Assembly (NCBI GenBank): GCA_017434885.1
Contig: JAFSGE010000050.1
Location: forward strand, 1 to 64,000
Direction: 5' to 3'
DNA: 64,000 nucleotides
Origin: Lachnospiraceae bacterium
Lineage (GTDB): Bacteria > Bacillota > Clostridia > Lachnospirales > Lachnospiraceae
The translations under genes were made by a program, and so were the position numbers. The notes beneath the pieces were generated by a model. It searched no databases. It was not told where the DNA came from and saw only the letters and a program-made list of their open reading frames with translations. Below, in pieces: positions 30,780 through 33,460 of the stretch. Position 1 is the stretch's first letter. Each line of letters opens with the position of its first letter.

Positions 30780-30808
30780 TTGTCATAAGTAATGAATTCT
30801 GTTACAAT
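30780..30808 (+). promoter_or_regulatory. Promoter of hydrogenase-like sensor gene
   Basis: TTGTCA (30780-30785), 17-base spacer, TACAAT (30803-30808), about 75 bases before the start. The rest of the 286-base divergent spacer is AT-rich with no other recognised element. Confidence 0.55.
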
Positions 30809-30885
30809 ATTAACAAACTATTATATATATATTAGGTAGATAGGGTTTTTCGGATTTGGATTAAGACGACAAAGGAGAAGGTAAT

Positions 30886-32802
30886 ATGTTGGCGAAAGGG
30901 TTAGTATTTACAAATGAAAACTGTCAGGGATGTAACCGGTGTATTTCGGTTTGTCCGGTTATGACAGCAAACCAGTCTACAGAGGTAGACGGTAAAAATG
31001 TAATTTGGGTAAACGGTGATGCATGTGTGCATTGCGGAGCCTGTATGGATGTATGCCATCATAAGGCAAGAAGTTATCAGGATGATGTAGATAAATTCCT
31101 GGATGATTTAAAGAGAGGAGAAAAAATCAGTCTGCTTGTTGCACCGGCATTTATCGCCAATTACAAAAAGCAGTACAGACAGATTCTCGGTTATTTAAAG
31201 AGTCTCGGAGTAAACCGTATTATCAGCGTAAGCTTTGGTGCAGATATTACATCATGGGGATATTTGAATTATATTACCAAGTATAATTTTACAGGCGGTA
31301 TTTCACAGCCTTGTCCCGCAATTGTAGATTACATTGAGAAATACATACCTGATTTGGTTGATAAATTAGTGCCGGTACACAGTCCTATGATGTGTAGTGC
31401 CATTTATGTAAAGAAATACATGAAGGTTCCGGATAAACTTGCATTTTTAAGTCCTTGTATTGCAAAGAAGTCAGAAATTACCCGTGACGGAAACAAAGAT
31501 TACATTCAGTACAATGTAACCTTTAATCATTTGATGGATCGTCTGAAAGGTATGAATCTTAGCGGCTATGATGCAGGAGATGAGATTGAGTATGGTCTCG
31601 GAAGTGTATATCCTCAGCCCGGCGGATTAAAGGAAAACGTAGAATATTTCCTTGGAAAGGATGTAATGATTCGTCAGATTGAAGGCGAAAAGCATGCATA
31701 TCATTTCCTGGAAACTTATGCAAAGCGTGTGCGCGAAGGAAAGAAGCTTCCTTTCATGGTGGATGCACTGAATTGTGCAAGCGGCTGTATTTACGGTACG
31801 GCAACAGAACCTGAGAAGGAAGAAGATGAAGATATCTTATTCGAAATTCATAACGAGAGAGTCAGAAAGTCTCAGGATAAGAAGAACCCTTGGAACAAGG
31901 ATTTACCGTTTGAGAAGAGATTAAATAATCTGAATGAACAGTTTAAAGACCTGAAGCTGGAAGACTTTATTTGTACCTACAATAAGCATGCGGCAGTAAA
32001 GACCAAAGAGGTCAGCGAAGCAGAGATTCAACAGGTACTGCGCAGCATGAATAAGGTGACAAAGGAAGAACAGAGTGTTGACTGCGGTGCCTGCGGATAT
32101 GAAGGATGCCGTCAGATGGCGAAGGCAGTTGTTCTCGGCGTAAACCGTAAGGAAAATTGTGTTCATTACTTAAAGGGCGAGTTGGAACTTGAAAAAGCTG
32201 AAATGAATCGCATGCATGATGAACTGAAAGAAAAGCAACAGCAGAAAGCAGTTCTTTACGCAGAGATTACAGAAGCCTTTGAGAAGATTAAGACTTCCAT
32301 GGAAGAACTTGCAAAAGGAAATCAGAGTTCTGCAGAGGATGCAGGAGCTATGGCGGAAGCAGTCAGCGAGATGAGCGGATTTACCGATAAGCTGAATGAT
32401 TCCATGATGCAGTTTAAAGAAGCGGTAAGCGGTTATGATATTGTAAATGAATCCATTATCAAGATTTCCAACCAGACCGGTATGCTTGCGCTGAATGCAG
32501 GAATTGAAGCGGCAAGAAGCGGTGAGGCAGGCAAAGGATTTGCAGTAATTGCAAACCGTGTAAGAGATTTGTCCGACCAGACCAAGGAAACCGTGATTGT
32601 AGGTAAGACCAAGAGTGATGAACTTCTTCCTGCAATTGAAAGACTGGAAAATGAAGTGGAAATTTTCCTGAACGATGTTTATAAGGTAAATGAGAAAACT
32701 GCTGCACTTGCGGCAAGCAGTGAAGAAATTGCTGCACAGGCCGGTGTGATTGAAGATATCATGAACCGTGTTGCAGATCAGATGAAGGAGCTTATAGATT
32801 AA
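30886..32802 (+). CDS. [FeFe]-hydrogenase-like iron-sulfur protein fused to a methyl-accepting signalling domain
   Basis: Probable cytoplasmic redox or hydrogen sensor. Two 4Fe-4S ferredoxin motifs (Cys 13/16/19/23 and 47/50/53/57) lead into an H-cluster domain: QPCPA (Cys143), SPCIAKKSE (Cys191) and NCASGC (Cys297, Cys301) supply the four cubane ligands. The cysteine that normally precedes the first ligand and relays protons is Pro142, which argues against fast catalysis. A further four-cysteine cluster follows (Cys 400/403/408/425, DCGACGYEGC). Residues about 455-638 are a chemoreceptor signalling hairpin with tip ISNQTGMLALNAGIEAARSG and GEAGKGFAVIANRVRDLS. No membrane helix. Start ATG 30886 follows AAAGGAG. 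No CheA/CheW or hydrogenase maturation genes are nearby. Confidence 0.88.
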   Translation: MLAKGLVFTNENCQGCNRCISVCPVMTANQSTEVDGKNVIWVNGDACVHCGACMDVCHHKARSYQDDVDKFLDDLKRGEKISLLVAPAFIANYKKQYRQILGYLKSLGVNRIISVSFGADITSWGYLNYITKYNFTGGISQPCPAIVDYIEKYIPDLVDKLVPVHSPMMCSAIYVKKYMKVPDKLAFLSPCIAKKSEITRDGNKDYIQYNVTFNHLMDRLKGMNLSGYDAGDEIEYGLGSVYPQPGGLKENVEYFLGKDVMIRQIEGEKHAYHFLETYAKRVREGKKLPFMVDALNCASGCIYGTATEPEKEEDEDILFEIHNERVRKSQDKKNPWNKDLPFEKRLNNLNEQFKDLKLEDFICTYNKHAAVKTKEVSEAEIQQVLRSMNKVTKEEQSVDCGACGYEGCRQMAKAVVLGVNRKENCVHYLKGELELEKAEMNRMHDELKEKQQQKAVLYAEITEAFEKIKTSMEELAKGNQSSAEDAGAMAEAVSEMSGFTDKLNDSMMQFKEAVSGYDIVNESIIKISNQTGMLALNAGIEAARSGEAGKGFAVIANRVRDLSDQTKETVIVGKTKSDELLPAIERLENEVEIFLNDVYKVNEKTAALAASSEEIAAQAGVIEDIMNRVADQMKELID

Positions 32803-32806
32803 TTCT

Positions 32807-33460
32807 ATGAACAAAAAGAAGCTTGCTTTGGAAATAATAGAACGTTTAGCTAAAGAGTACCCGCTTGCAGGGTGCTCTTTAGAATATAATGAGGCTTGGA
32901 AACTTTTGGTAAGCGTACGGCTTGCGGCACAGTGTACGGATGCGAGAGTAAATGAAATTGTTCCGAAGCTGTACGAAAAATTTCCAACGGTAGATGCACT
33001 GGCACAGGCTGATGTAGATGAGATAGAGCAGATAGTGCGCCCCTGCGGACTTGGCAGAAGCAAGGCGAGGGATATCAGTGCCTGTATGAAAATGCTAAAG
33101 GATGAATATGACGGTGAAGTGCCGGATGATTTTGATGCACTTTTGAAGCTCCCGGGGGTAGGCAGAAAAAGTGCAAACCTGATTATGGGCGATGTGTTTG
33201 GTAAGCCTGCCATCGTAACGGATACCCACTGCATACGATTGGTGAATCGTATGGGACTGGTGGATGATATCAAAGAACCCAAGAAGGTGGAGATGGCGCT
33301 TTGGAAAATTATTCCTCCAAAGGAAGGCAGTGACTTTTGCCACAGGCTTGTATTTCACGGCAGAGATGTATGTACGGCGAGAACCAAACCATATTGTGAT
33401 AAATGTTGTCTGAATGATATCTGTGCCAAGGCAGGTGTCGAAAAAGGAAAGAAAAAATGA
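32807..33460 (+). CDS. nth: Endonuclease III
   Basis: DNA glycosylase/AP lyase for oxidised pyrimidines. The helix-hairpin-helix LLKLPGVGRKSANLI carries the catalytic Lys, and IVTDTHCIRLVNRMG the catalytic Asp. The C-terminal iron-sulfur loop has CTARTKPYCDKCCLNDIC; ligand spacing appears as C-X7-C-X2-C-X5-C, one residue longer than the usual X6 at the first gap. 217 residues. Starts four bases after the sensor gene. Its stop overlaps the next start (ATGA). Confidence 0.95.
   Translation: MNKKKLALEIIERLAKEYPLAGCSLEYNEAWKLLVSVRLAAQCTDARVNEIVPKLYEKFPTVDALAQADVDEIEQIVRPCGLGRSKARDISACMKMLKDEYDGEVPDDFDALLKLPGVGRKSANLIMGDVFGKPAIVTDTHCIRLVNRMGLVDDIKEPKKVEMALWKIIPPKEGSDFCHRLVFHGRDVCTARTKPYCDKCCLNDICAKAGVEKGKKK

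Follow-up and report, generated by a model that had tools for sequence, protein, structure and literature searches.

The window is a 64,000-nucleotide stretch of contig JAFSGE010000050.1 from a Lachnospiraceae bacterium. An open reading frame on its forward strand (30886..32802) encodes a 638-residue protein in which hydrogenase-like domains are fused to the signalling hairpin of a methyl-accepting chemotaxis protein (MCP). The open reading frame, its translation, and the cysteine positions bore out the coordinates and residue numbers of the original prediction. A ribosome-binding-site-like sequence, AAAGGAGAAGG (30871-30881, forward strand), lies just 5' of the open reading frame, and a sigma-70-type promoter-like site, TTGTCA-17-TACAAT, was found at 30780..30808 of the same strand. 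The latter matches the consensus at 10 of 12 positions, and TG precedes the second hexamer; as the promoter of the fusion gene it is suggestive only, as the region around the gene contained 12 sites of this type vs. a shuffle mean of 7.2 (sd 2.7). No sigma-28-type promoter (TAAA-N-CGATAW) was found near the fusion gene, and four matches were present elsewhere in the window (1.69 expected). An open reading frame at 32807-33460, endonuclease III-like by eye, begins 4 bases past the fusion stop codon and is perhaps co-transcribed with the fusion gene, with an unrelated function. An operon or neighbour tie to che or hydrogenase genes was considered and dropped: inspection by eye showed no such gene beside the fusion in the window, and none among the genes that recur around the 59 homologue loci described below; these recurring genes appeared to have unrelated housekeeping roles.

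Domain Organization and Conservation

The Pfam matches of the 638-residue protein comprise, from the N to the C terminus, two [4Fe-4S] ferredoxin motifs, a Fe_hyd_lg_C H-domain, a Cx2Cx4Cx16C cluster, and an MCP hairpin, all on the forward strand. The first (C13, C16, C19, and C23; 30922..30954) and second (C47, C50, C53, and C57; 31024..31056) ferredoxin motifs matched Fer4, and the Fer4 dicluster models cover residues about 7-61. The H-domain (PF02906, E 2e-30) spans residues 81-304 (31126..31797) and contains the four cubane-binding cysteines of the [FeFe]-hydrogenase superfamily. The C-terminal cluster (C400, C403, C408, and C425; 32083..32160) corresponds to the FeS model PF04060 (residues 399-426, E 8e-8), and the hairpin (residues 489-634; 32350..32787) to the MCPsignal model PF00015 (E 8e-17; 62 bits against a cut-off of 34.6). 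Sixteen of the 18 cysteines belong to the four cluster motifs, the other two being C170 and C363. No membrane helix is indicated, because the highest 19-residue Kyte-Doolittle mean was 1.13, and no PAS domain model was among the Pfam matches at E 0.1. Pfam, the cysteine positions, and the hydropathy thus agree with the prediction that one polypeptide joins two ferredoxin clusters, the cubane ligands, an extra four-cysteine cluster, and an MCP hairpin without a membrane helix.

A scan of genome contigs gave 59 homologue loci that were 44-94% identical to the window protein, 52 of them titled Lachnospiraceae, Roseburia, or Acetatifactor and 58 encoding 638-652 residues. The nearest named relative (L022), from a Lachnospiraceae bacterium, was 94% identical. 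These loci, a paralogue from the window's own genome (L008), and the window protein form a set of 61 sequences, of which 43, picked for spread, were used for alignment A1. The eight ferredoxin cysteines and C425 were invariant in A1. C400, C403, and C408 were present in 60 of the 60 rows that reach them, and all four C-terminal cysteines were invariant in A1 and in 84 of 84 non-enzyme heads of the head alignment. This conservation of cluster residues across homologues indicates that the fusion is real rather than a product of chance or of misassembly. L067, which is 73% identical over its first 366 residues and then broken in the assembly, ends short of the C-terminal cysteines and was omitted from A1 and from the 113-row hairpin set.

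When 392 genomes from the class of the window were searched with A1 (E 1e-60), 20 had a match, distributed over nine family codes; one of the 20 (G347) had no MCP tip in the stretch examined. Two distinct MCP fusions, sharing 47% and 33% identity with the window protein, lie head to tail at L108 (G091 contig 4). In a single case, L173 (G099 contig 8), the gene of a canonical TSCCP hydrogenase immediately precedes that of an MCP fusion.

Pocket Residues of the H-domain

The pocket positions are given in CpI numbering. The L1 motif, S140-Q-P142-C143-P (31303..31317, forward strand, as are the motifs below), supplies the first cubane ligand, C143, and places P142 at the position of the proton-relay Cys299. 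The L2 motif, S189-P-C191-I-A-K194-K-S-E (31450..31476), supplies C191, and the L3 motif, D293-A-L295-N-C297-A-S-G-C301-I-Y-G304 (31762..31797), supplies C297 and C301 and has L295 at the M497 position. K194 presumably sits at the cyanide-contact position of the H-cluster pocket. An extra conserved cysteine, C170, lies in M168-M169-C170 (31387..31395). The four cubane ligands, Pro142, Cys170, Lys194, D293, Leu295, and G304 were each found in 61 of 61 sequences, and C170 was kept in 64 of the 69 rows of the wider MCP-type set in the head alignment.

The predicted replacement of the relay cysteine by Pro142 was confirmed, as the group A-like and group B enzymes of the same genome have Cys at this position; comparison with the same two enzymes assigned Leu295 to the M497 position. 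Ser189 occupies the M353 position when the motifs are compared directly (S-P-C in the fusion, M-P-C in group A, and G-P-C in group B), a statement that rests on motif reading because the group A row is shifted in the head alignment, where S and G are shown for the enzymes. With P142 and L295, the fusion protein lacks the prototypical group A/B signature (the relay cysteine of TSCCP and M497), and it scored below the cut-offs of the NCBIfam group A (81 vs. 405.95 bits) and B1 (141.4 vs. 450 bits) models. The relay Cys, M497, and M353 positions are all replaced, as in the low-activity sensory enzymes of the literature. Of the sensory sequences in HydDB, 17% have Cys at the relay position, about 43% Ala, and about 10% Pro (PMC10055695), and in prototypical enzymes M497L leaves the di-iron site not properly integrated (PMC10055695). 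The Cx2Cx4Cx16C motif after the H-domain is that of sensory groups C and D (motif definition in PMC8163306), and the PAS domain of the group C subclass M2f is absent.

Signalling Hairpin and Co-occurrence with CheA

The hairpin tip, LALNAGIEAARSGEAGKGF (32485..32541, forward strand), which we take to be the CheA/CheW-contact region, was intact. Its core positions were identical in at least 90% of 113 rows, and it resembles the MCP tips of its own genome among the matches listed. The PF00015 match together with this conserved tip marks the protein as an MCP. The segment AASSEEIAAQA (residues 609-619; 32710..32742, forward strand) resembles a methylation site at E613/E614, according to what we take to be the methylation consensus; E613, E614, and A617 were present at 90% or more in A1. 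The fusion has 97 residues after the tip Glu, vs. 123-170 in all but one of the 13 MCP rows compared from its own genome (155-161 in nine of them), which derive from 12 of 29 MCPsignal matches; the outlier, L020, has 266. This short hairpin suggests that the fusion may not enter the main arrays and may form a separate or mixed array. In the paralogue L008, the tip reads ATHSGE vs. AARSGE in the window protein, the conserved tip Arg being exchanged for His.

The window's genome (3.1 Mb, 58 contigs, 94.5% complete) gave five places in a CheW-domain search, two of them within CheA, and thus encodes two CheA and three further CheW-domain proteins as candidate partners of the fusion. MCPsignal gave 29 matches, two of which share one frame. 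Four Fe_hyd_lg_C genes were found, namely a group A6-like hydrogenase (759.2 bits, slightly under the 765 of the A6 model and above the general group A cut-off), a group B hydrogenase, and two MCP fusions, the second of which, L008 (G000 contig 37, 1252-3177), is 47% identical to the window protein. The maturase genes hydE, hydG, and hydF are clustered on contig 43, all above cut-off. The original prediction would have been refuted by a genome lacking hydEFG or by a tip unable to bind CheA/CheW; since CheA, CheW, HydEFG, and an intact tip are all present, these tests do not refute the receptor reading.

The survey covered 298 genomes from the same family as the window, which we take to be Lachnospiraceae. 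Matches to the head family at E 1e-60 were found in 59 of these genomes, and the CheA dimerisation domain in 152. All 51 genomes with a full-length MCP-type fusion had CheA, vs. 101 of the 247 others (Fisher p 9e-18, kinship ignored); two of the 51 full-length matches (G105 and G084) carry one internal stop. The co-occurrence became 54 of 54 when G022, G279, and G072 were added, in which the MCP portion is fragmentary, split, or carried by a more distant copy. CheA was missing from only two of the 59 head-bearing genomes (G042 and G069), in which kinase-type fusions alone (L094, L096, and L098) were found at E 1e-60. Co-occurrence and tip conservation support a coupling of the fusion to CheA, although any MCP would tend to follow CheA.

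Output Domains Attached to the Head

The head was also found on histidine-kinase outputs in eight proteins (L091, L092, L094, L096, L098, L099, L101, and L107) and on GGDEF-EAL outputs in six (L093, L095, L097, L100, L102, and L103), with 30-54% identity over the head. L107 is cut within the head, and L092 has HisKA, receiver, and Hpt domains with no HATPase match. A GG[D/E]EF-type motif was absent from all six GGDEF-EAL relatives, and the EAL signature and the DDFGxG loop were present in five, so the output of these relatives is probably c-di-GMP breakdown. HydDB, in the part of PMC5037454 that gives its classes, has no GGDEF/EAL-type [FeFe] class, and no fusion of an [FeFe] hydrogenase to GGDEF/EAL was found, by title and start of abstract, among the papers listed in a literature search.

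A quick maximum-likelihood tree was calculated for 86 heads with SH-aLRT support only, omitting 58 contig-scan rows, the cut loci L104 and L107, and the repeats L108-L110, L192-L195, and L197. The fewest output changes for the three labels were seven, and the starred branches force at least five for the MCP label. The labels were more clustered than in all 200 shuffles, five of the six GGDEF-EAL heads falling into one group whose exact placement is unsure owing to long branches. This clustering indicates that output swapping was repeated but not free.

The 16 cluster cysteines were kept in all kinase-type and GGDEF-EAL rows; the MCP rows kept them too, apart from one Tyr and some gaps. Lys194 was kept in 68 of 69 MCP-type and seven of seven kinase-type heads. 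In the GGDEF-EAL heads, position 142 was P in three, T in two, and S in one; position 194 was K in three, R in two, and I in one; and position 86 was A in three and D in three.

Distribution of the Maturases

HydG was found at a cut-off of E 1e-100 in 133 of the 298 family genomes, in a search that did not score every first-look candidate in every genome; the same applies to one of the HydF (E 1e-60) and HydE (E 1e-20) searches, and the other scored all candidates. Across the family, the fusion and HydG occur independently of each other (HydG in 23 of 51 fusion genomes vs. 110 of 247 others, p = 1.0). Among the 28 fusion genomes without HydG, HydE was missing in 25, HydF in 25, and all three maturases in 24. 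Strong canonical hydrogenase matches were also present in 21 of these 24, and in G195, G212, and G287, all without HydEFG, the fusion was the sole Fe_hyd_lg_C gene at E 1e-10. The cluster ligands and pocket residues were similarly well conserved in 25 rows from maturase-less genomes (exceptions: one Asp at position 170 and one row gapped at the first ferredoxin motif) and in 26 rows from HydG-bearing genomes (exceptions: one row gapped over much of the head and one Tyr at position 142).

A strong Fe_hyd_lg_C match (E 1e-45) was found in 274 of the 298 genomes, of which 141 were without HydG; HydG was found in none of the 24 genomes lacking such a match (20 listed and four by elimination). Within the family, canonical hydrogenases seem often to be unaccompanied by recognisable maturases. 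Of the 13 single-contig genomes with a strong canonical match, five (G160, G194, G235, G267, and G286) are without HydG. In regards to the catalytic motifs, 21 hydrogenase rows from 20 stretches of 15 HydG-lacking genomes had the L2 motif and the L3 cysteine pair in 21 of 21 and the L1 CCP in 19, L172 and L176 being unmatched by the simple expression. Either the H-cluster is matured in HydG-lacking lineages by a route outside these models or their hydrogenases are idle. That 28 of the 51 fusion genomes lack HydG was first read as enough to show a head without an H-cluster; we rejected this as too strong and count the lack as evidence short of proof: hydrogenases were present in 274 of 298 genomes vs. 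HydG in 133, and since the HydG-lacking lineages keep hydrogenases with catalytic motifs, the absence of maturases cannot alone strip the fusion of its H-cluster. A literature search for [FeFe] proteins in the absence of HydEFG found no relevant paper.

Four genomes (G069 contig 16, G098 contig 67, G218 contig 10, and G238 contig 119) each have an extra low-scoring Fe_hyd_lg_C gene, in a frame of 438-503 residues, at a distance of about 6 kb from a group A-grade match. By size and place, these genes resemble TamHydS-like stand-alone sensors.

Discussion

The observed domain make-up, ligand conservation, CheA co-occurrence, and output swapping are best accounted for, in our view with good probability, by a soluble receptor that is coupled to CheA and senses H2 or low-potential redox with an exchangeable iron-sulphur head. 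The original prediction of a cytoplasmic receptor rather than an enzyme stands in so far as CheA/CheW, the tip, and the occurrence of CheA in 51 of 51 genomes favour a soluble receptor over a prototypical enzyme; H2 as the stimulus does not share this support. The fusion protein would be a soluble, presumably dimeric chemoreceptor in which the N-terminal head of about 430 residues acts as a putative sensory group C-like [FeFe] module unsuited to fast turnover. Either H2 or reduced ferredoxin may supply electrons that alter the state of the head clusters, and the change could be relayed through the C-terminal Cx2Cx4Cx16C domain, seated directly on the coiled coil. A shift in CheA activity would then allow the cell to move or adapt to intracellular redox or H2.

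The putative stimulus is about equally likely to be H2, acting through a full H-cluster, or redox state, read without a di-iron site. In the H2-specific form, which is the HydDB C2 proposal and which we hold only tentatively, HydEFG would install a complete H-cluster and H2 would act at the di-iron site. This is plausible for the window protein, whose genome contains HydE, HydF, and HydG, and the cubane cysteines, A86-P87, and K194 (68 of 69) are conserved in MCP-type heads; group C/D relatives with altered pockets also accept a synthetic di-iron site (PMC8163306, PMC10055695). Against it, the fusion is distributed independently of HydG, 24 of 51 fusion genomes have no HydE, HydF, or HydG, three of which have no other Fe_hyd_lg_C gene at E 1e-10, and Leu at the M497 position is a change that harms di-iron integration in prototypical enzymes (PMC10055695). 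The same independence from HydEFG with the cluster cysteines kept is what would be expected of a redox receptor that needs no di-iron subsite and reports the redox state of ferredoxin through four [4Fe-4S] clusters, namely the two ferredoxin ones, the cubane alone, and the C-terminal one, a reading to which we give equally cautious credence. The six GGDEF-EAL relatives, which keep all 16 cysteines while the positions of P142, A86, and K194 drift, point in this direction. However, MCP-type heads hold K194 and A86-P87 as though the di-iron site mattered, the strong canonical hydrogenases in 21 of 24 maturase-less genomes imply that missing HydEFG may mean an unseen maturation route, and the C-terminal cluster of TamHydS is not reduced under H2 (PMC13104023).

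A broader proposal, that a swappable [FeFe]-derived redox-sensing head functional without a di-iron site feeds MCPs, hybrid histidine kinases, and c-di-GMP breakdown (EAL) alike, appears rather doubtful at present; if it were true, the label "sensory hydrogenase" would be wrong for much of the family. Nar1/NARF has a hydrogenase-like fold that is said to function without a di-iron site, with a role in Fe-S assembly and no signalling domain. In regards to the output, the MCP part might make no contact with CheA and serve merely as a coiled-coil dimeriser or scaffold, as the short arm unlike the own-genome MCPs among the matches listed, the lack of a che neighbour, and the His for tip Arg in the paralogue would allow; given a tip conserved over 113 rows and CheA in every one of the 51 fusion genomes, we consider this unlikely. 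Still less probable is a slow but genuine hydrogenase that the MCP tail only regulates or localises. The H-cluster cysteines are intact and both TmHydS and TamHydS keep low activity (PMC10055695 for TmHydS), but Pro and Leu stand where prototypical enzymes have the relay Cys and M497, two canonical hydrogenases are already encoded in the genome, and the head is repeatedly paired with signalling outputs.

H2 is a central currency of fermenting communities. If a soluble receptor of this kind directs H2 or redox taxis, it would let fermenters position themselves by their own electron balance. Because the same head occurs in genomes with and without HydEFG and with three kinds of output, the choice between H2 and redox is directly testable.

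Comparison with Known Systems

Fusions of this kind are already known, as the putative HydDB group C2, to which the window protein would belong by its features. HydDB distinguishes histidine kinase-linked (C1) and putative chemotactic (C2) [FeFe]-hydrogenases, the latter being linked to methyl-accepting chemotaxis proteins with H2 sensing proposed (PMC5037454), and the window protein has MCPsignal on the same polypeptide. The C2 description in the part of PMC5037454 consulted makes no mention of HydEFG independence or c-di-GMP outputs. One source behind the classification is the ISME J paper PMC4817680, according to the reference list of PMC9431212, a Clostridium survey that dropped its C2 hits at validation. 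No experimental study of a C2-type protein was found in the open-licence literature searched, and the portions of PMC3543383 and PMC10787695 consulted do not describe such a fusion.

The putative group C sensor of Ruminococcus albus is likewise a putative H2-sensing [FeFe] protein, but it has a PAS domain and a putative Ser/Thr phosphatase and is clustered with its presumed target hydrogenase (PMC6776011). TmHydS of Thermotoga maritima (group C, M2f) shares with the window protein the N-terminal two-cluster domain, the H-domain, the C-terminal four-cysteine cluster, and the replacement of the relay Cys and M353 (PMC10055695, PMC8163306). It differs in its PAS domain and in Ala131 and Ser267, which occupy the C299 and M497 positions, whereas the window protein has no PAS domain, a directly attached MCP hairpin, and Pro/Leu (PMC10055695). 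TamHydS of Thermoanaerobacter mathranii (group D, M2e) shares the Cx2Cx4Cx16C cluster and has Ser or Thr at the M353 position, but carries no output domain on its polypeptide and has Ala at the C299 position; E252/E289 are its proton-path residues (PMC8163306, PMC13104023, PMC10407848). The C-terminal cluster of TamHydS stays unreduced under H2, which argues against reduction of this cluster as the signal, and H2 alters the secondary structure of the protein (PMC13104023).
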